Of a DNA stretch of 64,000 bases, positions 25,068 through 39,424 are shown one piece after another. The notes under the pieces were generated by a model. That model ran no database searches. It was not told the origin of the DNA and saw nothing but the letters and a program-made list of their open reading frames with translations. A program made the translations under genes and the position numbers. The first letter of the stretch is position 1. Every line of letters begins with the position of its first letter. Source of the stretch: Methanolobus sp. (GTDB taxonomy: Archaea > Halobacteriota > Methanosarcinia > Methanosarcinales > Methanosarcinaceae). The stretch spans positions 1 through 64,000 of the forward strand of contig NZ_JAUXNK010000031.1 in the NCBI RefSeq assembly GCF_030682845.1, written 5' to 3'.

Positions 25068-27728
25068 TCATTTTGCAATGATCGCCGAACTATTAGTCAC
25101 AGGGTCTTTCTCCACAGCAAATACATGGTCCGCAGAATCTATCAGTGACTCATCATGCGATACTACAAGGATCTGACCCACACCGATGTCGCGCATCATG
25201 TCTATCAGTTTGATCAACTGGTTAACATGCCCTTTATCCAGGAAAACTGTAGGTTCGTCCATGATCAGAGGAGGAAGTCCGGCCTGTTTTCCGGCTACGC
25301 CAAGCGAAAGCAGGCGATATATAGCGCACCTTAGTACAAGGTTGAACAAAGCCCGCTCCCCACCGCTCAGGAGTCTGGGTTCAAGGGAAGTTCCGTCCTT
25401 CTCGAACACAGTAAGGTTGTAGTCCGCGTCAAGCCTTACATGGGAGTAAGCGTTATTAGTGTACATGAAAGTGAATATCTCATTAATGAAAGTGTCCAAG
25501 GCCCCGATATTGTTGGAGCGCAACTGAGATCTGATGCGCATATACATCGCCTCGAGCTCTTGCGCATCCGCATAGATAGCATTGAGATAATCCACCTTGT
25601 TATTGAGCTGGTCAAGAACAAGTCTCAGGCTTTCGAAGCGCTTAAGCTCACTTTCAAGCATTCCCGCCTGCTTTGTGATCTCTTCCCGCTCCGCTTGCAG
25701 CCTGACGATCTCAGATTTTATGACTCCGAAGGCTTCATCATAGTCCCTGAACAGGGATTCAAGTCTAGATATATCAAAGCCGCCCACCTTGCCGCTTATC
25801 TCACGAAGGGACTCATTCTTTTCAGCAACCTGACCATCAAAAATAACGATCACCTCTCTGAAATTCGTGATCTTAGCTTCCATCTGTGCAATATCGGTTT
25901 TCATCCTGTCTGCTTCAACGAGGTCCGTGCGAACCTTCCGGGCGGCCTCAAGGAGTTTCAGGCACGCAGAATGTTCTTTCTCAGCTACTTCCAGTTCCTG
26001 CTTCAATAGCCGGAGTTTGTCCTGTAATCCCCTTACAGACTCCTCTATAAGGGACCTCCGTGAAGAGAGTTCCTCTTTCTTCTTATCATGATCAAGAAGC
26101 AGGGATTGGTATTCCAGAGCCAGCTTTTCAAGACTACGTATGTTCTCTTCGGAGGACTTTACTTCCCTGACTGTGACCTCAATTTCATTTCTGTGAACCC
26201 TGGCCTCTCTTACGCGCCCCAGCTTAGAATCCAGAGCCTCCTGTTTTTTCTTCAATACAGCTAATTCTGCCTGGAGTTCCTTCGCTTTCTGGGAGTCCGA
26301 AGCTGTCGCCTCCTCAATGCATGAACCCTTAAGATCCTGCATGCACGTGGGGCACTTCCCTTCGCTGAGGAGCTGAGCAGACTTTTTTATTCGCTCCTGT
26401 ATTTCCGTAAACTTTGCCGAAAGCTCTTTTTCCTTGCCATGCAGGCTTTTTTGCTGGTCGGTCACAAGATCGAAGATCTCCTCGATGTTCTCCAGCTTTT
26501 CCAGCGTCAGTCCAAGAGGCTCAAGGTTTGAGATAACAGAAACCTTCTTTTCCTCAAGCTGTGCTATTTTGGTGCGCGATGCCTCAATATCTGACTGTAT
26601 ACCTGTAAGCTTTTCCTTGCTCTGGGAAACAGACTTTTCCAGCTCATGGACATGTTTTTGGTTTTCTGCCAGCGAGTCAGCAAAGGTCGTTTGTTCTTTT
26701 TCAAGTACTGCCTTGTTTTTGCTTATATTGCTTATCCTGTCCCTCAATGAGCGCTCACTGGTGTCTATTCCTGATATCGTCCTTTCTATGTCCGAATCAT
26801 CAAGGTTGAATTCAGAACAAACCTCCCGAATCCTCTTTCGTAGCTCCTCCTGACCGACTCTTGAGGAAGCGATACTCTTCTCCATGGACCCTATCTGGAC
26901 ATACGCCCGGTTCTTCTTCTCATCAAGTTCTTTTATCTGGGACTGGACAGAAACCTTTTTGTCTGCTAATTCCCTGAATTCGGCAATCTTTTTTGAAGTC
27001 TCGTCTTTCAATGACAGCGCACGGTCCTTCTTATCATTAAGAGAGGAGATCTCCCTTTCAAGATTCCCGGAGCGTGTGCGCAGTTCTGCAAGTTTTTCAA
27101 CAGGCTTTGAGTCTTCTATATGCCTGGCGGCTGCATCCACTTCCTTGATGCGGCGTTCCGTATCCTTCTGGTGGCGGCCAACACCTATGCGTGCACTTGA
27201 CGCCCGCTCACGATACTCTTCCAGTTTCCCAAGCTGCAGGAGATCGTCTATCATCTTCTGCCTGTCCTTTGGCTTGGAGTTTATCAGCACATCGATTTCA
27301 CCCTGCCTGATATAGACGCAATTCCGGTAGGCCTCTTCATCCATGTTGAGCAGTGAACGTATAGCATCATATGTACGTGTAGGCTGGTCGAAAAGAATCT
27401 CAGAATCTCTTCTGAGAATAGCACCCGTATTGGAAGCACGTCCCTTTTCAGGATCATTCCTGAAGAATTGCTCTACTGAATAATCATGGCCGTTCTGTTC
27501 GAAATCCAGCATTATGGAAGCTTTTGTAGCACCTTTTCGGATGATATCCGAAATGACAAAATCCTTATCAAGGGTCTTGCTTCCGAAAAGACAGGTAAAG
27601 CACGCCTCAAGCAAGCTGGATTTCCCACTCCCGTTGACTCCTGAGACTACGGTCACACCATCCTGGAAAGAGATGTCCAGCTGCTTATAGCTTCTTATGT
27701 TCTCTATCTGCAGTCTTTTTATTCTCAT
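25068..27728 (-). CDS. rad50: DNA double-strand break repair ATPase Rad50
   Basis: GVNGSGKSSLLEACF, zinc hook CPTC, LLSGGERALFNLVLRCAIYRLL. Confidence 0.97.
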   Translation of the reverse strand: MRIKRLQIENIRSYKQLDISFQDGVTVVSGVNGSGKSSLLEACFTCLFGSKTLDKDFVISDIIRKGATKASIMLDFEQNGHDYSVEQFFRNDPEKGRASNTGAILRRDSEILFDQPTRTYDAIRSLLNMDEEAYRNCVYIRQGEIDVLINSKPKDRQKMIDDLLQLGKLEEYRERASSARIGVGRHQKDTERRIKEVDAAARHIEDSKPVEKLAELRTRSGNLEREISSLNDKKDRALSLKDETSKKIAEFRELADKKVSVQSQIKELDEKKNRAYVQIGSMEKSIASSRVGQEELRKRIREVCSEFNLDDSDIERTISGIDTSERSLRDRISNISKNKAVLEKEQTTFADSLAENQKHVHELEKSVSQSKEKLTGIQSDIEASRTKIAQLEEKKVSVISNLEPLGLTLEKLENIEEIFDLVTDQQKSLHGKEKELSAKFTEIQERIKKSAQLLSEGKCPTCMQDLKGSCIEEATASDSQKAKELQAELAVLKKKQEALDSKLGRVREARVHRNEIEVTVREVKSSEENIRSLEKLALEYQSLLLDHDKKKEELSSRRSLIEESVRGLQDKLRLLKQELEVAEKEHSACLKLLEAARKVRTDLVEADRMKTDIAQMEAKITNFREVIVIFDGQVAEKNESLREISGKVGGFDISRLESLFRDYDEAFGVIKSEIVRLQAEREEITKQAGMLESELKRFESLRLVLDQLNNKVDYLNAIYADAQELEAMYMRIRSQLRSNNIGALDTFINEIFTFMYTNNAYSHVRLDADYNLTVFEKDGTSLEPRLLSGGERALFNLVLRCAIYRLLSLGVAGKQAGLPPLIMDEPTVFLDKGHVNQLIKLIDMMRDIGVGQILVVSHDESLIDSADHVFAVEKDPVTNSSAIIAK

Positions 27729-29317
27729 AAGTAGTCACCAAGGTTGTACTGCCGTGGTTTGGGAGCAGCTTTATGCTCCTTATGAGAAGGTGTTTCCGGT
27801 CCTTTTTCCTGAGCAACGACCTCATGAGCCTTCTCTAAGGGAGGGGCTTCACCTTCAGAGAATATATACTGCCGGACATTTACATCGTGTTTCTGTTCAG
27901 CGTGACCTTCAGTTACCTCGGACATTTCAGTTGTTTCAGTTGATTCGGTTGATTCAATTGATTCGGGCACTTCGGTTAATTCCGTTACTTCATCTACAGC
28001 GGAAACATCTTCTTTTGCCGTAACACCCTGGTCAAAGTTCTGCTCAAAGTTATCTGCTGCAACAGCCTCAAACTTCTCATCCGTTGTGACCACTATAAAC
28101 TCATGAGAAGTTTCATGAGAGACTCCCTGCAGGGAAGGTTCGACAGACTCGCCCTCAGGCAATGCCACAACTGCAGGAACCTCGACCCTGTTTGTGAAAT
28201 CCATCCTGTCGAGCAATTCACCAAGTCTGTCTTCGACTTCAGCGTCAACCCTGCTCTTTACGAGCACAGGGTCCCTGATTATCTCGTCGAGCATGATGCC
28301 ACCCTGTGTAAGATTCATCTTCCCCAGTTCCTCTTTAACCGCCTCATCGGGATCTGTAAAAGAAAAAGACATATATACGTCCGGGAAAATGTCACCGGCC
28401 CTGAGGTCCCTTATAGCAGGGACAAGGGCCTTGCGGGAAAACAGGAATTCCTCTATCTCACTGAACTTGATCTTTATCTCAGGATCTCCCGAGATATTCA
28501 CAAATACTATCTTGTCCTCGACATCACGCTCTTTGATAGCAGAGAATATTTCCTCGTAAGCCTGTGAGCCTTTGCTGAGCTTGACAGGTATGAATACAAA
28601 ATCCCTGGTAGGTATTACCCTCTTGCTTATATCGACCCCATCATCGCCTGCAGTGACGATATTATAGGAGCGGGGCTCAAGTTCGGATGCACCGTTGCGC
28701 TCGGTGCTGCCACAATAGGTAACCCAGGTCTCTCCTACCCTGATTATTTCATGCTTGTGATTATCACCAAGGAGCACGGCATGCACATCAAAAGGAATGG
28801 AATGCAGGACTTCCTGCACATCCCAATCACCAAAAGCAAAGGGTTTCATCATCTGATGCATTACAAGCAGATTATATTCTGCATCATCCTCATTATTGAA
28901 AACTGAATAATCGAACAGAGGAATCCGGGATTTGGGTACATGGTCAATCCCATATACAGCTACGCTGCCCAGCCTGTAAGGTGTGGCCCCAAGGCGTATG
29001 ACAAGCCCCATGCTTTCATAAAGGTCAAGCCACTGTGTGCTTTGCTTGCTCTCATGGTTACCCACAACTGCAAGCAATGGAACCTGAGCATCCCTGAGCC
29101 TTGAGAAAAGTTTCATCGTCTCCAGAATATCATCAAGAGTCGGATTCCTTGAGTCGAAAAGATCACCTGCATGTACAACAGCATCGGCTTTCATTGAAAT
29201 GGCATCATCGATCACCTTTGCAAAAGCATCGAGAAAATCCTGCCTGCGTACTTCGCTGTGGTACTGCCGGTAACCTAAGTGTGTATCCCCTGTGTGGATT
29301 ATCTTTGTTTCATCCAT
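27725..29317 (-). CDS. mre11: DNA double-strand break repair nuclease Mre11
   Basis: HTGDTHLGYRQY, HAGDLFD, VVGNHE; overlaps rad50 by 4 nt. Confidence 0.97.
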   Translation of the reverse strand: MDETKIIHTGDTHLGYRQYHSEVRRQDFLDAFAKVIDDAISMKADAVVHAGDLFDSRNPTLDDILETMKLFSRLRDAQVPLLAVVGNHESKQSTQWLDLYESMGLVIRLGATPYRLGSVAVYGIDHVPKSRIPLFDYSVFNNEDDAEYNLLVMHQMMKPFAFGDWDVQEVLHSIPFDVHAVLLGDNHKHEIIRVGETWVTYCGSTERNGASELEPRSYNIVTAGDDGVDISKRVIPTRDFVFIPVKLSKGSQAYEEIFSAIKERDVEDKIVFVNISGDPEIKIKFSEIEEFLFSRKALVPAIRDLRAGDIFPDVYMSFSFTDPDEAVKEELGKMNLTQGGIMLDEIIRDPVLVKSRVDAEVEDRLGELLDRMDFTNRVEVPAVVALPEGESVEPSLQGVSHETSHEFIVVTTDEKFEAVAADNFEQNFDQGVTAKEDVSAVDEVTELTEVPESIESTESTETTEMSEVTEGHAEQKHDVNVRQYIFSEGEAPPLEKAHEVVAQEKGPETPSHKEHKAAPKPRQYNLGDYL

Positions 29318-29463: not shown

Positions 29464-29934
29464 ATGGACAGTAAGGGACAGATGACTATCGACTATCTGA
29501 TAAGCATTATAATATTTTTGCTTGCAATGGTCTTCGTGTTCAGTTATACATCCGGGATATTCACACCGTTCCAATCCAACTCAGACGAAGTCACATTGAT
29601 AGCGGACAGAGTATCCATAGCTATCGTTGAAAAGAGAATGAGCGCCGGGGATGAGGCTGTTCCTAATCTGGTCAACAAAACAAAGATTAATGATTTTTTT
29701 GCAGATCTTAATAATGACACAAACTACCAGTCTATTATTGATTCCCTCGGGATGAACGGCAGCTATCTGCGGTATGACCTGAACGTCACTGCAGAGAACA
29801 GCAGTAGTATCATTTCTGCAGGAAAACCGATTCCTCCCCAGATCAACGTAGGGCAGACACGGAGGATAGTCCTGTGCAAAGATGAGAATTCAGAGAGGAC
29901 AGAGATGGTAATTCTGTCATTCAGGGTGTGGTGA
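29464..29934 (+). CDS. Cassette A gene 1: pilin-like membrane-anchored protein (DUF7287-like)
   Basis: MDSKGQMTIDYLISIIIFLLAMVFVFSYTSGIFTPFQ; class III signal-peptide-like KGQ motif with acidic +5; paralog of 34217-34684. Confidence 0.8.
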   Translation: MDSKGQMTIDYLISIIIFLLAMVFVFSYTSGIFTPFQSNSDEVTLIADRVSIAIVEKRMSAGDEAVPNLVNKTKINDFFADLNNDTNYQSIIDSLGMNGSYLRYDLNVTAENSSSIISAGKPIPPQINVGQTRRIVLCKDENSERTEMVILSFRVW

Positions 29935-29935
29935 C

Positions 29936-30550
29936 ATGAGAAGAAATGTACCGCACAAACTTGAAAGAGGCGAACATGCTCAGATGCATACCCTTGAAGC
30001 GATCATTGCATCGCTCATCATGGTCGCAATTATCATATTCACTGTGCAGGCAACTTCCCTTACCCCTCTCACATCCTCCACAGCTAATGCCCACATAGAG
30101 GCCCAACTCCAGGCAATGGGGCAGGATATGCTCAATGCCCTTTCATATTCAGCTTATGGTCAGAACTCGAATCTGACAAATGATGTCCTGAAATGGGATG
30201 GTGAGCAGTATGTCTGGAACGGGACAACATACAGGACAGTTAGGAATCCAGGTTACGAGCTTCAGGACAGTTCACTTGCCCATACGCTCGAATTCATCGC
30301 AGTCAAAAGAGGGATTGCACATAATGTTCATTTCAGCTGGGTGGATGAAGAAGGCGTCACAATGTCCCGAAGATACATCTATAACGGGGATCCTTCGAAT
30401 AACGCTGTGGTGATATCAAAGAGAGTGCATTTATCAGATTTTGACGTCGGTAACACAACTGAATTTGCGGCACGCAGCGGAATCCCGGATGCGGATCCGA
30501 CAGATTTCTACAATATCGTGAATGTAAAAATGACGCTCTGGAGAATGTAG
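29936..30550 (+). CDS. Cassette A gene 2: pilin-like protein (DUF7288-like)
   Basis: AQMHTLEAIIASLIMVAIIIFTVQATSLTPLTSSTANAHIEAQLQAMGQDML; paralog of 34687-35307. Confidence 0.8.
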   Translation: MRRNVPHKLERGEHAQMHTLEAIIASLIMVAIIIFTVQATSLTPLTSSTANAHIEAQLQAMGQDMLNALSYSAYGQNSNLTNDVLKWDGEQYVWNGTTYRTVRNPGYELQDSSLAHTLEFIAVKRGIAHNVHFSWVDEEGVTMSRRYIYNGDPSNNAVVISKRVHLSDFDVGNTTEFAARSGIPDADPTDFYNIVNVKMTLWRM

Positions 30551-30557
30551 TGATCGC

Positions 30558-31415
30558 ATGAGAAAATTAGATGATTCCGCTCAGTTGTTATTGATAGCAG
30601 GTTTTGCCATAGGAGTAGGCATAGTTGTAATTACAGTCATGCTAAGCAATGTGATATATGCCAGCAACATGGCATCGGAATCAAGCATTGATACTTCCCG
30701 CTACGATATTGCCAACGCGATCCAGACAACCACTGAAGCATATCAGGACGCTTACAGGTACTCCATATTGGATGAGGATAACATCACCCGTTATGAAGAA
30801 TATATTGACTCCTACTCCAGGAAAGCCTCACAGAACTATGCAACAGCAGGCTTTACTTTCCACCTGCAAGACCATGGCTTCTCAGAACCTTACTTCACCC
30901 ACAACGGGCTTGCAGAGGGGAAGGACAACTGGACCCTTGTGAGCAACGTAAACATGACTGAATCATTCTTTATTACGCCAAACACATCCACCATGGGAAA
31001 TGAATCCAATCCTCTTGTAATCGAAGCCTTCAATCATAGCGGAAGTAGCCTATGGTCAATCGGAATGTACAATTCAAGCGGGAAGGTAAACATAACTGTA
31101 ATAGACGGTTCATTCGCACCTCGGTACAAACCAGATATAGGAGCTAATCCAGAAGTCAACATAACAGGTAATCGGATCAATAATGAAACCTTCGAGTTCA
31201 ATTATTCTGCTTCCACAACAGGCCAGGATTATTCAATAAATATCTACAACGGAAGCAATACCATTGGAATCTACACAATATCCGGCAATACTTCATCCGG
31301 TCAGCCCTTCATGCTTGCAAGATACGAAGTTGCGAACCCAACCCTGAGGATGGCTTCCAGCCAGATGAGTATTAACCGGTCGGTGCCAATTCCCCTTCCG
31401 GGGGGGATGTCATGA
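30558..31415 (+). CDS. Cassette A gene 3: membrane-anchored surface protein (DUF7261-like)
   Basis: MRKLDDSAQLLLIAGFAIGVGIVVITVMLSNVIYASNMASES; paralog of 35330-36154. Confidence 0.8.
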   Translation: MRKLDDSAQLLLIAGFAIGVGIVVITVMLSNVIYASNMASESSIDTSRYDIANAIQTTTEAYQDAYRYSILDEDNITRYEEYIDSYSRKASQNYATAGFTFHLQDHGFSEPYFTHNGLAEGKDNWTLVSNVNMTESFFITPNTSTMGNESNPLVIEAFNHSGSSLWSIGMYNSSGKVNITVIDGSFAPRYKPDIGANPEVNITGNRINNETFEFNYSASTTGQDYSINIYNGSNTIGIYTISGNTSSGQPFMLARYEVANPTLRMASSQMSINRSVPIPLPGGMS

Positions 31416-31885
31416 GAGATCTGGCAGGAGATGAGAATGCAGTATCTATCTCAATTGGGTTCATACTTACCTTCTCCATAACAGTTCTTGTGATGGTAAT
31501 TGCTCTGACATCATTTTATTCACTGATGGGACAGGCTGAGCAGACCGTGATGCGCGACGAGTTCGAAATACATGGAAGCGATATTGCGGTCCGTATAACA
31601 TCTCTGGATACGACAGTTGGTATAGCAAAAGATGCAGGTTCCGATATTGGAAGGATCAGTTACAGACTATCTCTTCCTGACAAGATAGCAGGGAAGGAGT
31701 ATTCCATCGAGTTCTCAAACAGTACAAATGAAATAACTTTCATGTCTGAGGAAAGAGCTGAGACAAGGGTCAAAGTACCCTATTCCACCGAAGATACCAA
31801 TGTTACTCCAACTATTCTTTACAGTTCGAAAGGCGAATACCTGATGGTTTACAACCCGATCACCAATACAATAGATATATCCTGA
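31412..31885 (+). CDS. Cassette A gene 4: membrane-anchored surface protein (DUF7266-like)
   Basis: DENAVSISIGFILTFSITVLVMVIALTSFYSLMGQAEQTVMRDEFEIHGSDIAVRI; ATGA overlap with gene 3; paralog of 36151-36648. Confidence 0.8.
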   Translation: MRDLAGDENAVSISIGFILTFSITVLVMVIALTSFYSLMGQAEQTVMRDEFEIHGSDIAVRITSLDTTVGIAKDAGSDIGRISYRLSLPDKIAGKEYSIEFSNSTNEITFMSEERAETRVKVPYSTEDTNVTPTILYSSKGEYLMVYNPITNTIDIS

Positions 31886-31891
31886 GAGTGA

Positions 31892-32686
31892 GTGCACATG
31901 GACAGCAGGAAAAAGGCACGAAAAAATATTGTTGCATCCGATGATGCTGTTTCAGAAGTACTTGGTTTCAGTATCACTCTTGGAGTGATGGTTCTGTCGC
32001 TCGCTGTTATAGGCGTTGCAGGATATCCCATGCTTGAAAACATGCAGGAGAGAGGACATCTTCTGAACATAGAGCAAAGTTTCTCTGTGCTGCAGCCCAA
32101 CATTAACAAAGTGGCATTCGGAAAAGCACCCTCTCAGTCAGTAGAGCTTAAAATGTACGGGAGCAGCATCTCAGTTACAGGAACCAGTTACATGAATTTG
32201 AGCATGCAGGTATGGAATAGTACCAATTCGAGTTATGATACCCCTTCCCTTGAAAGACAGATGAGGACGATAGAGAATCAATATAGTGAAAATACCGTAG
32301 CCTATGAGAACACAGGCACCTGGGTCAGGTACCCGCAAGGAAGTTCCATAGCGATCTCAAAACCGGATTTCGCGTATCATGACAACGTATTACTTATTCC
32401 CATGGTAACCATTTCAGGCACAAAAAGCATTTCCGGTTCAGGGCTGACCCGTGTTGTTTCCCAGGGAGGGCAAATATCGGTTTCAGTATATGAAAATGTA
32501 TCCAGGGTCGACATTACCATTAAAAGCGATTATTACGAGGGCTGGGAAAGGTACCTGAATGAAACGCTGGGAATGGATATCAAGTACACAGATCCTGCAA
32601 ACAGCACCATATCTGCAAGCCGGGATTATAATCCCGGCATAGATGTGCTTGTGACAGTATCTCCAATGAGTGTAACTATTGAGTAG
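31892..32686 (+). CDS. Cassette A gene 5: membrane-anchored surface protein (DUF7289-like)
   Basis: SDDAVSEVLGFSITLGVMVLSLAVIG...NINKVAFGKAPSQSVELKMYGSSISVTG; paralog of 36664-37434 and more distantly of gene 6. Confidence 0.8.
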   Translation: MHMDSRKKARKNIVASDDAVSEVLGFSITLGVMVLSLAVIGVAGYPMLENMQERGHLLNIEQSFSVLQPNINKVAFGKAPSQSVELKMYGSSISVTGTSYMNLSMQVWNSTNSSYDTPSLERQMRTIENQYSENTVAYENTGTWVRYPQGSSIAISKPDFAYHDNVLLIPMVTISGTKSISGSGLTRVVSQGGQISVSVYENVSRVDITIKSDYYEGWERYLNETLGMDIKYTDPANSTISASRDYNPGIDVLVTVSPMSVTIE

Positions 32687-32697
32687 TAGGTGCGATT

Positions 32698-34137
32698 ATG
32701 GTCAAAAAATTTATTATTTCTGAAAAAGCTGTGTCTGCTGTTGTAGGAGTGATGATAATCCTTGCACTCACTATTACGTCTACAAGCGTCATCCTTCTGT
32801 ATTCAACCCCCACCATGAGAAATATGGGGGATATGGCCAACGCCCAGAGAGCTGAACAGGCATTTACGGTTTTTGACTCCAGGGTTAGCAAGGTGGCACT
32901 GGGAGAATCACCCAGCCAGACCACATCGTTCTCAATAATGGACGGTAGTGTCAGCGTCAATGGGGATGCAAGTGCCTATCAGAACAGCCAGATGGTAGTG
33001 GTGTGCACCCAGCTCAGCGGGGAATCATGGTATACTACTTTTAACAATAACAGGTTCAAATGGAACAGCTGGGAGCCTCATGTAGCCCAGCCAAACATGA
33101 CTGTGTTCCGTTCACCTATGGGAAGCATTACCTATACCCAGGGAGATCGCATCATCGGCTATGAAGGTGGCGGCGTATGGTCAAAATACCCCACCGGAAA
33201 GGCCGTCATGATATCCCCGCCGGAATTCCATTACAATGGAGAAACGCTCACCCTGCCCATAATGAAAATAGAAGGAAACGAGGTTTTCAGCGGAAGGACG
33301 GATGTTGCAGTGACCGTGAGCTCCGATAATATGCCTGTAGTACTCTATCCTGATCCAAGCAGTATAAAGAAAGTTAATCCGCTCAGCTCGGATAAAGTGC
33401 TCATCTACATAAAGAGCGAATTCTACACAGCCTGGGCCGATTATGCTAATTCCCTTACTTATGCCAGTGCAACAACAGATGACGCAAACCAGACTGCCAT
33501 CGTGGAACTGGAGGTGATGCCGGCAATGGGAAAAGATCAGCTTAAGCAGGTGTTCAAGATTGGTGCCCTTAACCAGACAAATCCTGCACCAATGTATAAT
33601 TTCACGTTCAATCTGGAAGCAAAAGCAAGCCAAGGGCTTAATCCAAGCAATTATCAGATAACTGCTTCGTCCGGCACAAAGACCCTGACGTACACCCTTG
33701 CTAAAAAAGGTGGTGCAAACCAACTTGAGCTTGGACTGATCTATAAAGATACAGCCACAGGTGGAGGTACTGAAACATGGGTAGGAACAACAGTATTCTC
33801 TGTCAGTGGTTCAAAAGAAGACCAGTCTGCAAACGTTGACTTGCTGAGCACCTCTTTCAACATGAAATATGATTCAAATACAGGTGACTTTTCTTGGCCT
33901 GATTTGGATATAACAAAAAGTAACCCAAACAGCACCCAATCATTGCACACTGTATCTCAGCATTATATGAAACTTCTCACAATGGATGGTTCAGTAATAT
34001 TCAATATCCAATCACCCGGGAAGTCAGATCCTGTGGACTATTCAGAATCAACACTGACACTCCTATATGATGGGGCGCCGGGAAGCATCACTTACCTGCA
34101 TGTGAGCAGGAACGATCTTGCAGTTACACTCAGTTGA
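32698..34137 (+). CDS. Cassette A gene 6: large membrane-anchored surface protein (DUF7289-like N-terminus)
   Basis: EKAVSAVVGVMIILALTITSTSVILLYSTPTMRNMGDMANAQRAEQAFTVFDSRVSKVALGESPSQTTSFSIMDGSVSVNG; paralog of 37442-38920. Confidence 0.8.
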   Translation: MVKKFIISEKAVSAVVGVMIILALTITSTSVILLYSTPTMRNMGDMANAQRAEQAFTVFDSRVSKVALGESPSQTTSFSIMDGSVSVNGDASAYQNSQMVVVCTQLSGESWYTTFNNNRFKWNSWEPHVAQPNMTVFRSPMGSITYTQGDRIIGYEGGGVWSKYPTGKAVMISPPEFHYNGETLTLPIMKIEGNEVFSGRTDVAVTVSSDNMPVVLYPDPSSIKKVNPLSSDKVLIYIKSEFYTAWADYANSLTYASATTDDANQTAIVELEVMPAMGKDQLKQVFKIGALNQTNPAPMYNFTFNLEAKASQGLNPSNYQITASSGTKTLTYTLAKKGGANQLELGLIYKDTATGGGTETWVGTTVFSVSGSKEDQSANVDLLSTSFNMKYDSNTGDFSWPDLDITKSNPNSTQSLHTVSQHYMKLLTMDGSVIFNIQSPGKSDPVDYSESTLTLLYDGAPGSITYLHVSRNDLAVTLS

Positions 34138-34139
34138 TC

Positions 34140-34185
34140 CTATGTAAGGGGAGTTATCCTCTTACATAGAGTAATTATCTTTTTA
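34140..34185 (+). terminator. 13-bp hairpin CTATGTAAGGGGA-GTTA-TCCTCTTACATAG plus downstream T-tract, between cassettes A and B
   Basis: Stem arms 34140-34152/34157-34169 (one G-T wobble), T-tract follows. Confidence 0.8.
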
Positions 34186-34216
34186 TATAATAAAGTATAT
34201 ATTTATAGAGAGGATT

Positions 34217-34684
34217 ATGGATAACAGTGGCCAGATGCATATGGATTACCTGATAGGGATTGCAATATTCCTTGTCAGTATCACTTTTGTTTTCTCCTAC
34301 ACAGCCGGGTTATTCACCCCGTTCCAGTCAAACTCAGATGAAGTCACCCTTATAGCCGACAGGGTCGCAACAAACATCGTTGAGCAAAATATGAGTGTAG
34401 GCAGACCCGGGGCAACTAATCTTCTGAATGACACAAAAGTAAATGACTTTTTTAATTACACTGACAGCAATTACCAAAATACTCTTGACATGCTGGGGAT
34501 GAATGGAACTTACCTTCGGTATAATCTCAATATTACGCTTGAAGATAATACAGGAATAACAAAACTAACAGGAGAGTCCCTGCCCTCTCAGGGAAACATA
34601 GGACAGACCATAAGAGTTGTGCAGCTCAGAAATGAAACAACAGGGAACATTTCCCAGGCAATTTTAGCCGTGAGAGTGTGGTAA
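34217..34684 (+). CDS. Cassette B gene 1: pilin-like protein (DUF7287-like)
   Basis: MDNSGQMHMDYLIGIAIFLVSITFVFSYTAGLFTPFQSNSDEVTLIADRV; shares TPFQSNSDEVTLIADRV exactly with cassette A gene 1. Confidence 0.8.
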   Translation: MDNSGQMHMDYLIGIAIFLVSITFVFSYTAGLFTPFQSNSDEVTLIADRVATNIVEQNMSVGRPGATNLLNDTKVNDFFNYTDSNYQNTLDMLGMNGTYLRYNLNITLEDNTGITKLTGESLPSQGNIGQTIRVVQLRNETTGNISQAILAVRVW

Positions 34685-34686
34685 GC

Positions 34687-35307
34687 ATGGAGAAAAAGAA
34701 AGGACAGACATCTCTAAAGTCGAGTTCATCCGCACAGTTACACACACTTGAAGCCTTAATGGCACTGTTACTTGTTATTGGCGTGATCATTTATACTGTC
34801 CAGGCAACATCCCTGACCCCGCTCACATCCTCAACTGCAAATGCGCATATTGAGTCCCAGTTGCAGATACTCGGACAGGACATGCTTAGTACACTTGACT
34901 ACGCCGAATACGGGCAGGATTCGCCCCTTAAAACAGACATATTGAGCTGGAATGGTAAGTACTACACATGGGACTCAAACCAATATAGATCGACTTCCGG
35001 AGATAATCTTAGTAACAGTTCAACCGCAAATATTCTGAAATCTGTTGCAATTGGGAGAGGAATAGCACATAATGTGGAGTTTGCATGGATAGAAGAAGGT
35101 GGCACCATGCGAACTATGCCATATATATACAACGGTGAGCCCTCGGATAACGCTGTAGTAATTACCAAAAGAGTATTGCTGTCAGACTCTGATTTTCCTG
35201 ATAAGGACCCAACCTCCTTCAGAAAAAGTAGCGGTATTCTGGATGCCGATCAAAGTACGGATTTCTATAACCTTATCGATGTGAAACTGACTCTATGGCG
35301 CATGTAA
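34687..35307 (+). CDS. Cassette B gene 2: pilin-like protein (DUF7288-like)
   Basis: AQLHTLEALMALLLVIGVIIYTVQATSLTPLTSSTANAHIESQLQILGQDML; start set at internal ATG 34687. Confidence 0.8.
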   Translation: MEKKKGQTSLKSSSSAQLHTLEALMALLLVIGVIIYTVQATSLTPLTSSTANAHIESQLQILGQDMLSTLDYAEYGQDSPLKTDILSWNGKYYTWDSNQYRSTSGDNLSNSSTANILKSVAIGRGIAHNVEFAWIEEGGTMRTMPYIYNGEPSDNAVVITKRVLLSDSDFPDKDPTSFRKSSGILDADQSTDFYNLIDVKLTLWRM

Positions 35308-35329
35308 AACAAAATGGCAAGTGGTTGAT

Positions 35330-36154
35330 ATGAGAAAATGGAACGACTCTGCACAGATGATATTGATTGCCGGTTTTGCCATAGGGATAGGCATCGTAGT
35401 CCTTACAGTTATGCTGAATAACATAATCTATGCAAGTAATACTGCTTCAGAGGCAAATATCGAGACTAATGTTTTTGATTTTTCCAATACAGTAAGAGTG
35501 ACAACTCAGGCTTACGAAAAGGCCTATTGCAATGGTTCTATTAACAACGCATACATCTCCAACTATAGCCAGCAAATGGCAAAGAGCTATGCACTCTCAG
35601 GGTTCATATACACCCTGGATAATGATCCCTTGCAAGAACCTTATCTAACAGAGAATGGACTCAGCAGCGGAAATCCTGAATGGGTTGTTGTCGATAGGAT
35701 TAACCAGACAGATCACTTTGAGTTGGTGATAAACACTTCTTCACTGGGAAACGAATCAAGCTGCTTTGCAATAGAAGCATTTAACCAGTCTGGTATGTTC
35801 TGGTCAGTCAGGGTCTTCAACTCCAGCGGCGCATTTTATGCTAATGTTACAAATAGTACAGACATACTGAGAACTGAGAACATTGGTGCCGGCAGCCCAT
35901 CATTGAATATATATAATAATACGCCTTTTGATTTTCATTTTAACACCCTGACAGCAGGTGAACAATACCGGATCAGATATGTAAATGGTAACCAGGCAAG
36001 TGGTACTTTCGCAATATCAGGCAACCTCACTAACGGTCAGCCTTTTGAAATTAGAAGATACCATGTGCTCAATACCACGATGTCACTTAACAAGAACGGA
36101 CATCTGGAAATGAATGTGACGATACCTGTTACATTGCCACGGGGGCATATATGA
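35330..36154 (+). CDS. Cassette B gene 3: membrane-anchored surface protein (DUF7261-like)
   Basis: MRKWNDSAQMILIAGFAIGIGIVVLTVMLNNIIYASNTASEA; start set at ATG 35330. Confidence 0.8.
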   Translation: MRKWNDSAQMILIAGFAIGIGIVVLTVMLNNIIYASNTASEANIETNVFDFSNTVRVTTQAYEKAYCNGSINNAYISNYSQQMAKSYALSGFIYTLDNDPLQEPYLTENGLSSGNPEWVVVDRINQTDHFELVINTSSLGNESSCFAIEAFNQSGMFWSVRVFNSSGAFYANVTNSTDILRTENIGAGSPSLNIYNNTPFDFHFNTLTAGEQYRIRYVNGNQASGTFAISGNLTNGQPFEIRRYHVLNTTMSLNKNGHLEMNVTIPVTLPRGHI

Positions 36155-36648
36155 ACAGAAAAATTGCCACCATGAAATTTACCCGTGACGAGAGGGCAGT
36201 ATCCCTTTCTGTGGGATTCATGCTTACACTTGCTATAACACTCATAACCACAATGGTTCTGATCAGTTCCTTTTATACCATGATGGACAGGGCAGAGCAT
36301 ACTGTAATGCGTGATGAGTTCGAGATACATGGTAATGACATCTCGCTACAGATATCAAATATCGACACTGCTATCCAGATTACCAACAATGCCGGGGGAA
36401 GAGTGGAAAGCATCACTTATCAGCTGATACTCCCGGACACTATAGCAAACAAACAGTATTCTGTGGAGTTCTCCGGCCATCCTGGAACCAAAGAGATCAT
36501 CTTTGAATCCGAAGGAAGAGAGGAGACTAAAGTGAAAGTGGCATATACAACTAATGCTGTCAACGTCACACCCACAAAACTGTATAGCGGCTCAAATGAC
36601 TTCGTTTTACATTACAATGCCACCTCAAATATGCTGGAGATACATTGA
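36151..36648 (+). CDS. Cassette B gene 4: membrane-anchored surface protein (DUF7266-like)
   Basis: DERAVSLSVGFMLTLAITLITTMVLISSFYTMMDRAEHTVMRDEFEIHGNDISLQI; same ATGA overlap as cassette A. Confidence 0.8.
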   Translation: MNRKIATMKFTRDERAVSLSVGFMLTLAITLITTMVLISSFYTMMDRAEHTVMRDEFEIHGNDISLQISNIDTAIQITNNAGGRVESITYQLILPDTIANKQYSVEFSGHPGTKEIIFESEGREETKVKVAYTTNAVNVTPTKLYSGSNDFVLHYNATSNMLEIH

Positions 36649-36663
36649 ACCGGAGAGGAGCTA

Positions 36664-37434
36664 ATGAAAAAGATATTTACAAGGTCTGAAGATGCAGTTT
36701 CCGAAATGGTGGACTTTAGCATCATCTTGAGCATAATGCTCCTTGCCACCGGGATAATAGTAGTTGCAGGAGCCCCTCTTCTGGAGAACACTCAGAATAT
36801 GCAACATACGGAAAACATCAGGCAGGGTTTCGAGGTACTTGCCCTTAACCTGAACAAAGTGGTACAGGGAAAGGCTCCATCCCAATCCGTGGAAATGAAG
36901 ATGTACGGTGGGTCCCTGTCTGTCACCGGGGAAAGCTATATGGATATTGACTTGAAGGTTTGGAACTCATCTGCAAATGCTTTTGAAACTCAGTCTCCCG
37001 GAGGTAAGATGAGGATGGTAGAGAATAATTTCCAGGATACAACTATTTCTTATGAGAACACCGGCGTGTGGACAAAGTATAGTACTGGTCAGTCACTGAT
37101 GGTTTCTGAACCACGTTTTACCTATGCGAATAATGTCCTGGTCATACCTATTGCTAAGATCGGTGGTAGCACTTCTATATCTGGTTCCGGACTTGTCAGA
37201 GTTACTGCTGACAGCGGAAGAAAGACTGTAGAGGCTTATGAAAATGTATCCCAAGTGAATATAACAGTAACAAGCGAATACTTCGAAGCATGGGGAAGAT
37301 ACCTGAACGAAAGTCTTCTAATGCCCATAGTTATGGTGGATGCTGATAATAAAACTATAAATCTTAGCAAGGATTATCTTACTAATATTGATGTGTATGT
37401 AGCCAGTTCACCCATGACAGTTACAATCAATTAA
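36664..37434 (+). CDS. Cassette B gene 5: membrane-anchored surface protein (DUF7289-like)
   Basis: SEDAVSEMVDFSIILSIMLLATGIIVVAGAPLLEN...NLNKVVQGKAPSQSVEMKMYGGSLSVTG. Confidence 0.8.
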   Translation: MKKIFTRSEDAVSEMVDFSIILSIMLLATGIIVVAGAPLLENTQNMQHTENIRQGFEVLALNLNKVVQGKAPSQSVEMKMYGGSLSVTGESYMDIDLKVWNSSANAFETQSPGGKMRMVENNFQDTTISYENTGVWTKYSTGQSLMVSEPRFTYANNVLVIPIAKIGGSTSISGSGLVRVTADSGRKTVEAYENVSQVNITVTSEYFEAWGRYLNESLLMPIVMVDADNKTINLSKDYLTNIDVYVASSPMTVTIN

Positions 37435-37441
37435 AAAGGGA

Positions 37442-38920
37442 GTGGGAACTTTGAAAACTATGTTGAAAAATGAAACTGCGGTTTCATCCGTGATCGGAAT
37501 CTCAATAATACTTCTAATTAGCCTGTTATCAATTGGCCTGATGCTTCTTTATACTGCGCCTTTGATAAGTGAAACACAGGATATTGCTAAAGCCCAGAAA
37601 GTAGAACAAGCGTTTACGGTCTTTGACTCAAGGACAAGTAAATCATCACTTGGAGAGTCTCCTCTCCAGGCAACCGCACTTTCCCTTATGGGAGAAAACA
37701 TTATCGTGCATGGAAGGATGGATTCATACAATGAGAGCAGAATCATGATAATAGCTCTGTCTTCTAATTCCTCATGGTATGATAGTTTTTATCCCAACCG
37801 AGGAGCATGGGGTGCATGGGAAAAATATGAGAATCAAGAGCATGATTTTGCAGGATTCAACGCCTCAATGGGAAAAGTAAGATACTATTCCGGAAACAGA
37901 GTTATCGCTTATGAGGGAGGAGGAGTCTGGTCCAGATATCCTGAAGGAGGAACAATAATGGTATCACCACCCGAGTTCCACTATAATGGCGAAACGTTAA
38001 CTCTCCCAATTATGAAAGTGGTTGGTAACGACTCTATTGGAGGAAGTTCGAATGTGAACATCAATGTTAAATCTTCCAACACGCCTGTGGTCCTTTATCC
38101 AAACACCACGAGGAATACCAATTTCACCAACCCCCTTAACTGTGATAAAATTCTAATCTATATTAACAGTGAATTTTATGACGGATGGGCCGAGTACGCC
38201 GAAACACTTACTTCCACTCATGCGATTCTGGATCACAAAAATAAGACAGCAATTATTGAAATGGATACAAAGCCTCCCATGGGAACATTTCCATTGAAAC
38301 ATTCGTTCAAGATAGGCAAACTGAACCAATCAAACCCCGAACCCATCTACAACTTCTCTTTCTCTTTTGAGGCTGTTACAGGTGATGCATCCAACTTCAA
38401 TTCTGTGGAAACATACGTTACTGCTACTGCAGGAACAAAGACCCTTAATTACGAGATAAAGAAAACCACTATAGAGTTCATAGAATATTCAGACTCTGCT
38501 GTTGGCACGAATAGGGAGAGATGGGTCAGTACTGGTAGCCCTAACAGTACTTTTGTAATCTATGATGATCCCACTAACAAGAAGAAAGCAAACAGTACTT
38601 TCGACCTTGTCAGTGATACTTATCCACTGAAATATCATAACAAGTACGGGGCAGAATTCTCATGGGATGAGGTCAGCCCAACAACAATGACTCCAAACCT
38701 GACCATTGCAAATGGTGATGTGCAGTCATTAAATAATATCACCCAGCACTACATGAAACTTTTATCACAGGAGGGCGTCATGACTTGTACATGGGAGCAA
38801 AAAAAGAATAAAAAGATCAATGAGGGCGCTTCAACCTATACTTTGATCTATGACGGAGGGGAGGGATACCTCACCTACCTGCACATCACAAGCAACGAGC
38901 TTGAGGTAACCCTTGATTGA
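37442..38920 (+). CDS. Cassette B gene 6: large membrane-anchored surface protein (DUF7289-like N-terminus)
   Basis: ETAVSSVIGISIILLISLLSIGLMLLYTAP...KVEQAFTVFDSRTSKSSLGESPLQATALSLMGENIIVHG; start may be TTG at about 37451. Confidence 0.78.
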   Translation: MGTLKTMLKNETAVSSVIGISIILLISLLSIGLMLLYTAPLISETQDIAKAQKVEQAFTVFDSRTSKSSLGESPLQATALSLMGENIIVHGRMDSYNESRIMIIALSSNSSWYDSFYPNRGAWGAWEKYENQEHDFAGFNASMGKVRYYSGNRVIAYEGGGVWSRYPEGGTIMVSPPEFHYNGETLTLPIMKVVGNDSIGGSSNVNINVKSSNTPVVLYPNTTRNTNFTNPLNCDKILIYINSEFYDGWAEYAETLTSTHAILDHKNKTAIIEMDTKPPMGTFPLKHSFKIGKLNQSNPEPIYNFSFSFEAVTGDASNFNSVETYVTATAGTKTLNYEIKKTTIEFIEYSDSAVGTNRERWVSTGSPNSTFVIYDDPTNKKKANSTFDLVSDTYPLKYHNKYGAEFSWDEVSPTTMTPNLTIANGDVQSLNNITQHYMKLLSQEGVMTCTWEQKKNKKINEGASTYTLIYDGGEGYLTYLHITSNELEVTLD

Positions 38921-38931
38921 ACAATAGACAG

Positions 38932-38950
38932 AGGGTTTCACAGAAACCCT
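38932..38950 (+). terminator. Hairpin AGGGTTTC-ACA-GAAACCCT after cassette B
   Basis: 8-bp perfect stem directly downstream of the last cassette gene. Confidence 0.5.
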
Positions 38951-38992
38951 TAAATCAATCACTTGCCTTACCGATTACAAAAGGTGAAACTT

Positions 38993-39424
38993 ATGAAGAA
39001 AGCAATCATTGAAACCGAGAAAGGCAACATTGTACTGGAATTGTTCGAGAAGGATGCACCAAAGACCGTAGAGAACTTTGAGAAACTGATAAGCAAAGGA
39101 TTCTATGACGGGCTCAGTTTCCACAGGGTCTTGCCCAACTTCGTGATTCAGGGAGGATGCCCTAAGGGCAATGGGACAGGAGGACCGGGTTACAGCATCA
39201 AGTGCGAAACAAAAGGCAATCCACGCAAGCACGGCAAGGGTGCGCTCTCAATGGCACACGCCGGCAAGGACACCGGCGGCAGCCAGTTCTTCATCACTCA
39301 CTCCCCACAGCCACACCTTGACGGCATACACACCGTCTTTGGCCAGGTCATCGAAGGCATGGATGTCGTGAACAAGATTAAGCCAAAAGACGTGATGAAG
39401 AAAGTCACTGTAGTTGAAGAATAA
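38993..39424 (+). CDS. Peptidyl-prolyl cis-trans isomerase (cyclophilin)
   Basis: [45 protein letters not shown]; start chosen at ATG 38993 after SD. Confidence 0.95.

Follow-up and report, generated by a model that had tools for sequence, protein, structure and literature searches.

What would an archaeal cell do with two complete, adjoining sets of pilin genes, and which motor would assemble them? The question is raised by a 64,000-nucleotide stretch of a Methanolobus genome (positions 1 to 64,000 of contig NZ_JAUXNK010000031.1; hereafter the window), in which 12 open reading frames (ORFs) at 29464-38920 form two co-directional six-gene sets of the same order, here called cassettes A and B. 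Few archaeal pilin families have been characterised, and the locus offers a natural test of how pilin sets are matched to assembly motors, with two complete paralogous sets, a conserved gene order and one co-distributed orphan motor. Our favoured reading, to which we assign a probability of roughly 0.6, is that A and B are anciently diverged, separately maintained versions of a PilB4-type pilin set, serving as alternative sets on a shared motor encoded on another contig, C9.

An initial annotation of the window had described genes 1-6 as a duplicated cassette of pilin-like subunits with the same order and orientation, genes 3 and 4 of each copy overlapping by ATGA. All 12 ORFs were recovered at the same coordinates and strand, and the overlap was seen at 31412-31415 (A) and 36151-36154 (B). 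In both sets, genes 1, 2, 4, 5 and 6 passed the Pfam cut-offs for DUF7287, DUF7288, DUF7266, DUF7289 and DUF7289 plus DUF7308, respectively. The family names proposed in that annotation were thus largely correct, whereas the DUF7261 assignment of gene 3 was reached only below the 27-bit gathering cut-off (21.5 bits in A, 19.3 in B) and over the N-terminal part only; its operon position agrees with that family. Genes 5 and 6 are mutually paralogous (28-31% identity), and gene 6 carries a further domain at its C-terminus. Read by eye, the N-termini of the gene 1-3 products carry G/A-Q followed by a hydrophobic helix, and those of genes 4-6 carry xAVSxVxG, as in archaeal PilA proteins; these prepilin-like N-termini are present in all six products of both cassettes and are kept across genera. 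A class III prepilin signal with a single N-terminal hydrophobic helix is therefore predicted for every gene of both sets. AlphaFold2 models of A2 (pLDDT, the predicted local distance difference test, 84.8) and A6 (pLDDT 88.6) show an N-terminal helix of 55-58 residues, of 58 in A2, carrying a beta-sheet head in A2 and a beta-rich head in A6.

Full-length identities between A and B were 56.5, 55.4, 44.5, 51.0, 52.0 and 45.6% for genes 1 to 6 (BLASTP E 2e-55 to 3e-141). Whether this similarity reached beyond the transmembrane helix had been set beforehand as the test of the duplication, and with the first 50 residues cut off all six A/B pairs still aligned (E 3e-32 to 4e-127), so that the similarity is not confined to the helix. 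Together with the Pfam hits and the prepilin-like N-termini, these alignments support duplication of a whole set of pilin-like subunits. At the DNA level, no more than 1.3 kb (63%) and 76 bp (74%) could still be aligned. When the 58 ORFs of the window were compared with one another (E<=1e-6), the only other matching pairs were SMC/Rad50 and two ABC-ATPase genes, and no second duplicated block was found.

The age of the duplication was assessed by comparison with relatives from Methanolobus, Methanomethylovorans, Methanococcoides, Methanohalophilus, Methanosalsum and Methanoperedens. The A cassettes of Methanolobus and Methanomethylovorans cluster together, as do the B cassettes of both genera (support 98 and 100), from which the duplication is, on these trees, older than the split of the two genera. 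In trees of single genes, B of both genera groups for each gene separately, and A and B stand apart in nearly all, gene 6 of A not forming a clade. Deeper dating is unsupported, because the tree methods disagree: FastTree with the LG model on 92 cassettes grouped A and the single cassettes of other genera, leaving B outside that group, a mixture-model tree placed A and B together, plus one long-branched cassette row (G002) of uncertain place, and a single A+B clade was not rejected by the approximately unbiased (AU) test (p-AU 0.325). The trees thus place the duplication before the Methanolobus-Methanomethylovorans split but do not carry it back to the root of the family. Gene conversion is not needed to explain the near-identical A/B motifs TPFQSNSDEVTLIADRV and VQATSLTPLTSSTANAHIE, since these are kept across genera while A and B lie apart in nearly all gene trees.

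The initial description as a tandem duplication consequently holds for the arrangement and not for a recent event, which the trees reject. As far as the fetched stretches extend to the flanking genes, the array of Methanolobus is without exception bounded by rad50-mre11 on one side and by a peptidyl-prolyl isomerase gene, with modA after it, on the other. In Methanomethylovorans the two are apart: A lies beside mre11, and B, or the compact cassette S described below, lies beside the isomerase gene at another site (about 60 kb away in genome G177). Within Methanolobus the ratio of non-synonymous to synonymous substitution rates (dN/dS) was 0.07-0.22 for all twelve genes, a sign of purifying selection from which we conclude that both sets are maintained. 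Synonymous divergence (dS) between cassette A (window:29464-34137) and its counterpart at L185:9532-14199 was very uneven, at 0.12 for gene 5 and 0.74 for gene 6, which suggests between-species recombination within the cassette. Gene 6 of cassette B is broken into two ORFs in G266 (L089:15863-17381), and gene 1 of cassette A is also broken in G177 (L099:7746-8209), possibly through decay or sequencing error.

The initial annotation had left the function of these families blank. A counterpart is provided by Makarova, Koonin and Albers (2016; PMC4858521), who predicted a PilB4-type euryarchaeal type IV pilus with extended haloarchaeal ATPases and its own pilins. In all five haloarchaeal loci fetched (L108-L112), genes 1, 2, 4 and 5 share the locus with ATPase and TadC genes; genes 3 and 6 are also present in most, gene 3 being undetected in L109 and L112, and the families stand largely in the Methanolobus order. 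Because the haloarchaeal copies adjoin a PilB-type ATPase and a PilC/TadC protein, the six-gene set is, by family content and gene neighbourhood, the pilin set of the predicted PilB4-type pilus. That set was described as including a readily duplicated pilin of 250-550 aa (PMC4858521), which would fit the DUF7289 genes 5 and 6, with a putative mapping to arCOG02911, and a dedicated major pilin (arCOG03926) independent of PilA was also predicted for it (PMC4858521). The Methanosarcinales loci differ from the haloarchaeal ones, with their large extended ATPase, in two respects: the motor pair is encoded elsewhere in the genome, no ATPase/TadC pair being found beside the cassette in the window or in ~50 Methanosarcinales loci, and Methanolobus carries at least two full paralogous sets next to each other. 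In the literature searched, no experiment on these DUF families was found, and the DUF names were absent from the papers. The locus gives the six families a concrete working hypothesis.

Six pilus- or archaellum-type ATPases are encoded on other contigs of the same genome. Among its motors, the ATPase/TadC pair on contig C9, an orphan without adjoining pilin genes, is the closest to the haloarchaeal pair. Its distribution was surveyed in 101 genomes of the family, with a C9 TadC ortholog defined by 57% identity or more and the cassette scored by DUF7287. Both were present in 56 genomes and neither in 40, with DUF7287 only in 2 and TadC only in 3; that is, the ortholog accompanies 56/58 cassette-bearing genomes and 3/43 cassette-less ones (Fisher p 4e-22, uncorrected for phylogeny). 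Four of the five discordant genomes are assemblies <90% complete, and in one genome, G411, both are absent within a genus in which most members have both. The motors on C94 and C80 were rejected as trackers of the cassette, the former being missing from G073 and G247 and the latter from G061, G144, G247, G429 and others, all of which carry A and B. The Pilin_N genes on C4 were set aside as markers of the system, being canonical PilA and not distinctive. A single prepilin peptidase gene (Peptidase_A24) was found in the genome, on C82. The C94 ATPase itself (L080:5989-10498, G000:C94) is a very divergent orphan of 859 aa with a T2SSE domain and no pilins nearby; its partner protein has no Pfam hit, and the pair is kept in most Methanosarcinaceae, including Methanosarcina.

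A third type of cassette occurs in relatives. This compact pilin cassette, S, has five genes, including a long DUF7287 gene, and no gene 6. Across 24 Methanolobus genomes the arrangement was A-B only in 12, A-S-B in 4, A-S-S-B in 1, A-S-B-S in 1, A-S in 5 and S only in 1. Where the stretch reaches far enough, a gene on the opposite strand comes after S and encodes a secreted protein of 1,840-2,020 aa with immunoglobulin (Ig)-like (Big_1) and two vWA domains; long matches to this protein were found in 12/12 Methanolobus genomes with S and 0/12 without. Since they are adjacent, S and the vWA protein may form one unit of gain or loss. The window's genome has neither S nor a giant vWA protein of this family, and its A and B are without a linked vWA adhesin. 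Within one genus, therefore, A plus B can be contrasted with arrays that have added a third set and a giant adhesin, or in which the third set replaces B. Examples of the giant genes lie at L085:11616-17513, L083:6548-12493, L089:6821-12349 and L201:14535-20078; they are convergent with compact cassettes in Methanolobus, Methanococcoides and Methanohalophilus, and in Methanomethylovorans one also lies downstream of cassette A on the same strand. The protein is a possible archaeal tip adhesin.

Under the favoured reading, each six-gene operon, under its own promoter, would encode six different prepilins, of the G/A-Q class for genes 1-3 and the PilA-like AVS class for genes 4-6, the gene 6 product bearing a large additional head. 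These would be cut by prepilin peptidase, pack through their N-terminal helices and, in both cases, be assembled by the one ATPase/TadC pair on C9. If two pilin sets share one motor, at least two versions of a filament or filament tip become possible, which suggests that the cell could build alternative surface filaments or tips, with a surface function such as adhesion. Experiments in Haloferax have shown that a PilB-C pair can work with a pilin set other than its own (PMC6491452); the PilB1-C1/PilB3-C3 systems of Haloferax volcanii thus resemble the present case in that archaeal motors and pilin sets are partly interchangeable, and differ in that PilB1 belongs to another ATPase clade (4C) and no doubled pilin cassette was described (PMC6491452). 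Several observations weigh against this reading. Foldseek comparison of the A2 and A6 models with solved structures in the PDB gave no significant match, so that the pilin fold lacks confirmation by structure comparison, and sequence profile searches against the PDB gave none either. The margin by which the haloarchaeal PilB4-type TadC favours C9 (about 274 bits) over C59 (215 bits) is modest. Finally, joint absences of C9 TadC and cassette fall mostly in Methanosarcina-like genera; as these are mostly lineage-level losses, few independent events lie behind the correlation.

Other explanations share part of this evidence. The cassettes might be alternative minor-pilin complexes for the tip or priming of a stand-alone PilA filament, a narrower form of the favoured reading that we regard as possible, though tentative. 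Stand-alone canonical PilA genes are present on C4 and C59, each set comprises six different single-copy pilins, some with very large heads, and a related compact cassette is coupled to the giant vWA protein, whereas the window's genome is without that protein and the predicted set has its own major pilin and no dependence on PilA (PMC4858521). A precedent exists in Myxococcus xanthus, in which three clusters, each of four minor pilins and PilY1, serve one major pilin and one machine (PMC7541494). The likeness lies in several paralogous multi-pilin clusters per genome for one machine and in a large vWA-containing partner, which in archaea accompanies only the compact cassette. The sequence families are nevertheless unrelated, the Myxococcus system includes a secretin and a motor for retraction, and A and B have no vWA partner in the window's genome. 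By extension, the Methanolobus array could be a row of interchangeable tip complexes, all on one motor, in which A and B are joined by the compact set and the Ig/vWA adhesin of ~1,950 aa that goes with it; we offer this as a tentative possibility. If true, it would be an archaeal counterpart, of independent origin, of the myxobacterial minor-pilin/PilY1 clusters, and the cell's adhesion targets would shift as cassettes are gained or lost at this single site. For a different archaeal pilus clade, Makarova et al. (PMC4858521) proposed PilY-like adhesins at the tip, with domains of another type.

We consider it unlikely that A and B each make up a complete pilus in their own right, with a separate major pilin and motor, for instance A on C9 and B on C80 or C59. 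The several motors of the genome, the strong divergence of A and B and the predicted dedicated major pilin (PMC4858521) would suit such an arrangement, but the absences of C80 and C94 noted above include genomes with both cassettes, and C59 has PilA-type pilins of its own and a TadC type that also occurs in cassette-less Methanosarcina. Short pseudopili for protein secretion, as in type II secretion, are improbable, even though the unequal-sized pseudopilin-like subunits of each set recall the GspG-K layout, in which several different pseudopilins are of unequal size. Archaea have no outer membrane or secretin, neither A nor B is linked to an enzyme substrate for secretion, and relatives group with pilus systems that take part in adhesion (PMC6491452). 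Hardly credible is an ordinary recent tandem duplication kept for dosage, with no functional difference: the two sets adjoin and share order and families, yet their split precedes that of the two genera, their proteins are 44-57% identical, B lies apart from A in Methanomethylovorans, and both sets are under purifying selection. The pilin set as such is already known as a prediction, and what is new is the multi-cassette arrangement; the literature searched yielded no description of a conserved site at which two or more complete paralogous sets stand together, with a distant motor that they share and a vWA module as an optional addition.

A and B are probably transcribed separately, since a conserved box precedes B1 and a hairpin follows A6 (Table 1). 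The TTTATATA box lies 33-37 bp upstream of B1 in 11/18 Methanolobus and 2/2 Methanomethylovorans B cassettes, and the intergenic sequence around it varies among B cassettes. It is also found in 9/21 A cassettes, that of the window being without it.

Table 1 Features of the two cassettes and their flanks in the window.
Feature	Position	Strand	Evidence or remark
rad50-mre11, divergent left flank, outside the system	25068..29317	-	adjoins the array in all Methanolobus loci reaching rad50-mre11
A1, DUF7287 pilin-like, 156 aa	29464..29934	+	PF23958 E 4e-33; N-terminus KG/QMTIDY, prepilin-like
A2, DUF7288, 204 aa	29936..30550	+	PF23959 E 1e-46; N-terminus HA/QMHTLEA
A3, DUF7261-like, 285 aa	30558..31415	+	PF23922 21.5 bits, below cut-off 27; gene order; N-terminus SA/QLLLIAG
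A4, DUF7266, 157 aa	31412..31885	+	PF23928 E 6e-11; PilA-like N-terminus NAVSISIG
A5, DUF7289, 264 aa	31892..32686	+	PF23960 E 2e-27; N-terminus DAVSEVLG
A6, DUF7289 + DUF7308, 479 aa	32698..34137	+	PF23960 1e-22, PF23985 3e-18; N-terminus KAVSAVVG
Hairpin after A6, possible terminator	34140..34169	+	intergenic fold -19.5 kcal/mol; strong only in this genome
TTTATATA TATA-like box, 35 bp upstream of B1, likely separate promoter	34182..34189	+	positional conservation
B1, DUF7287, 155 aa	34217..34684	+	PF23958 E 9e-37
B2, DUF7288, 205-209 aa	34678..35307, start possibly 34690	+	PF23959 E 3e-43
B3, DUF7261-like, 274-277 aa	35321..36154, start possibly 35330	+	PF23922 19.3 bits, below cut-off; 42% to A3
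B4, DUF7266, 165 aa	36151..36648	+	PF23928 E 3e-11; Pilin_N E 0.019
B5, DUF7289, 256 aa	36664..37434	+	PF23960 E 4e-30
B6, DUF7289 + DUF7308, 492 aa	37442..38920	+	PF23960 2e-13, PF23985 6e-16
AGGGTTTC-ACA-GAAACCCT inverted repeat after B6, possible terminator	38932..38950	+	read by eye
Peptidyl-prolyl isomerase, then modABC; right flank marker, outside the system	38963..39424	+	locus comparison

Smaller changes to the set were seen in more distant relatives. Genes 3 and 4 are far longer in two loci of another family of the order (L103:3574-6835 and L106:5631-9198), reaching up to 790 and 597 aa, and the head domains of these subunits can therefore be greatly enlarged. Single cassettes of Methanococcoides (L095, L096, L150, L151 and L154) carry a doubled gene 6, a duplication tendency on a smaller scale.

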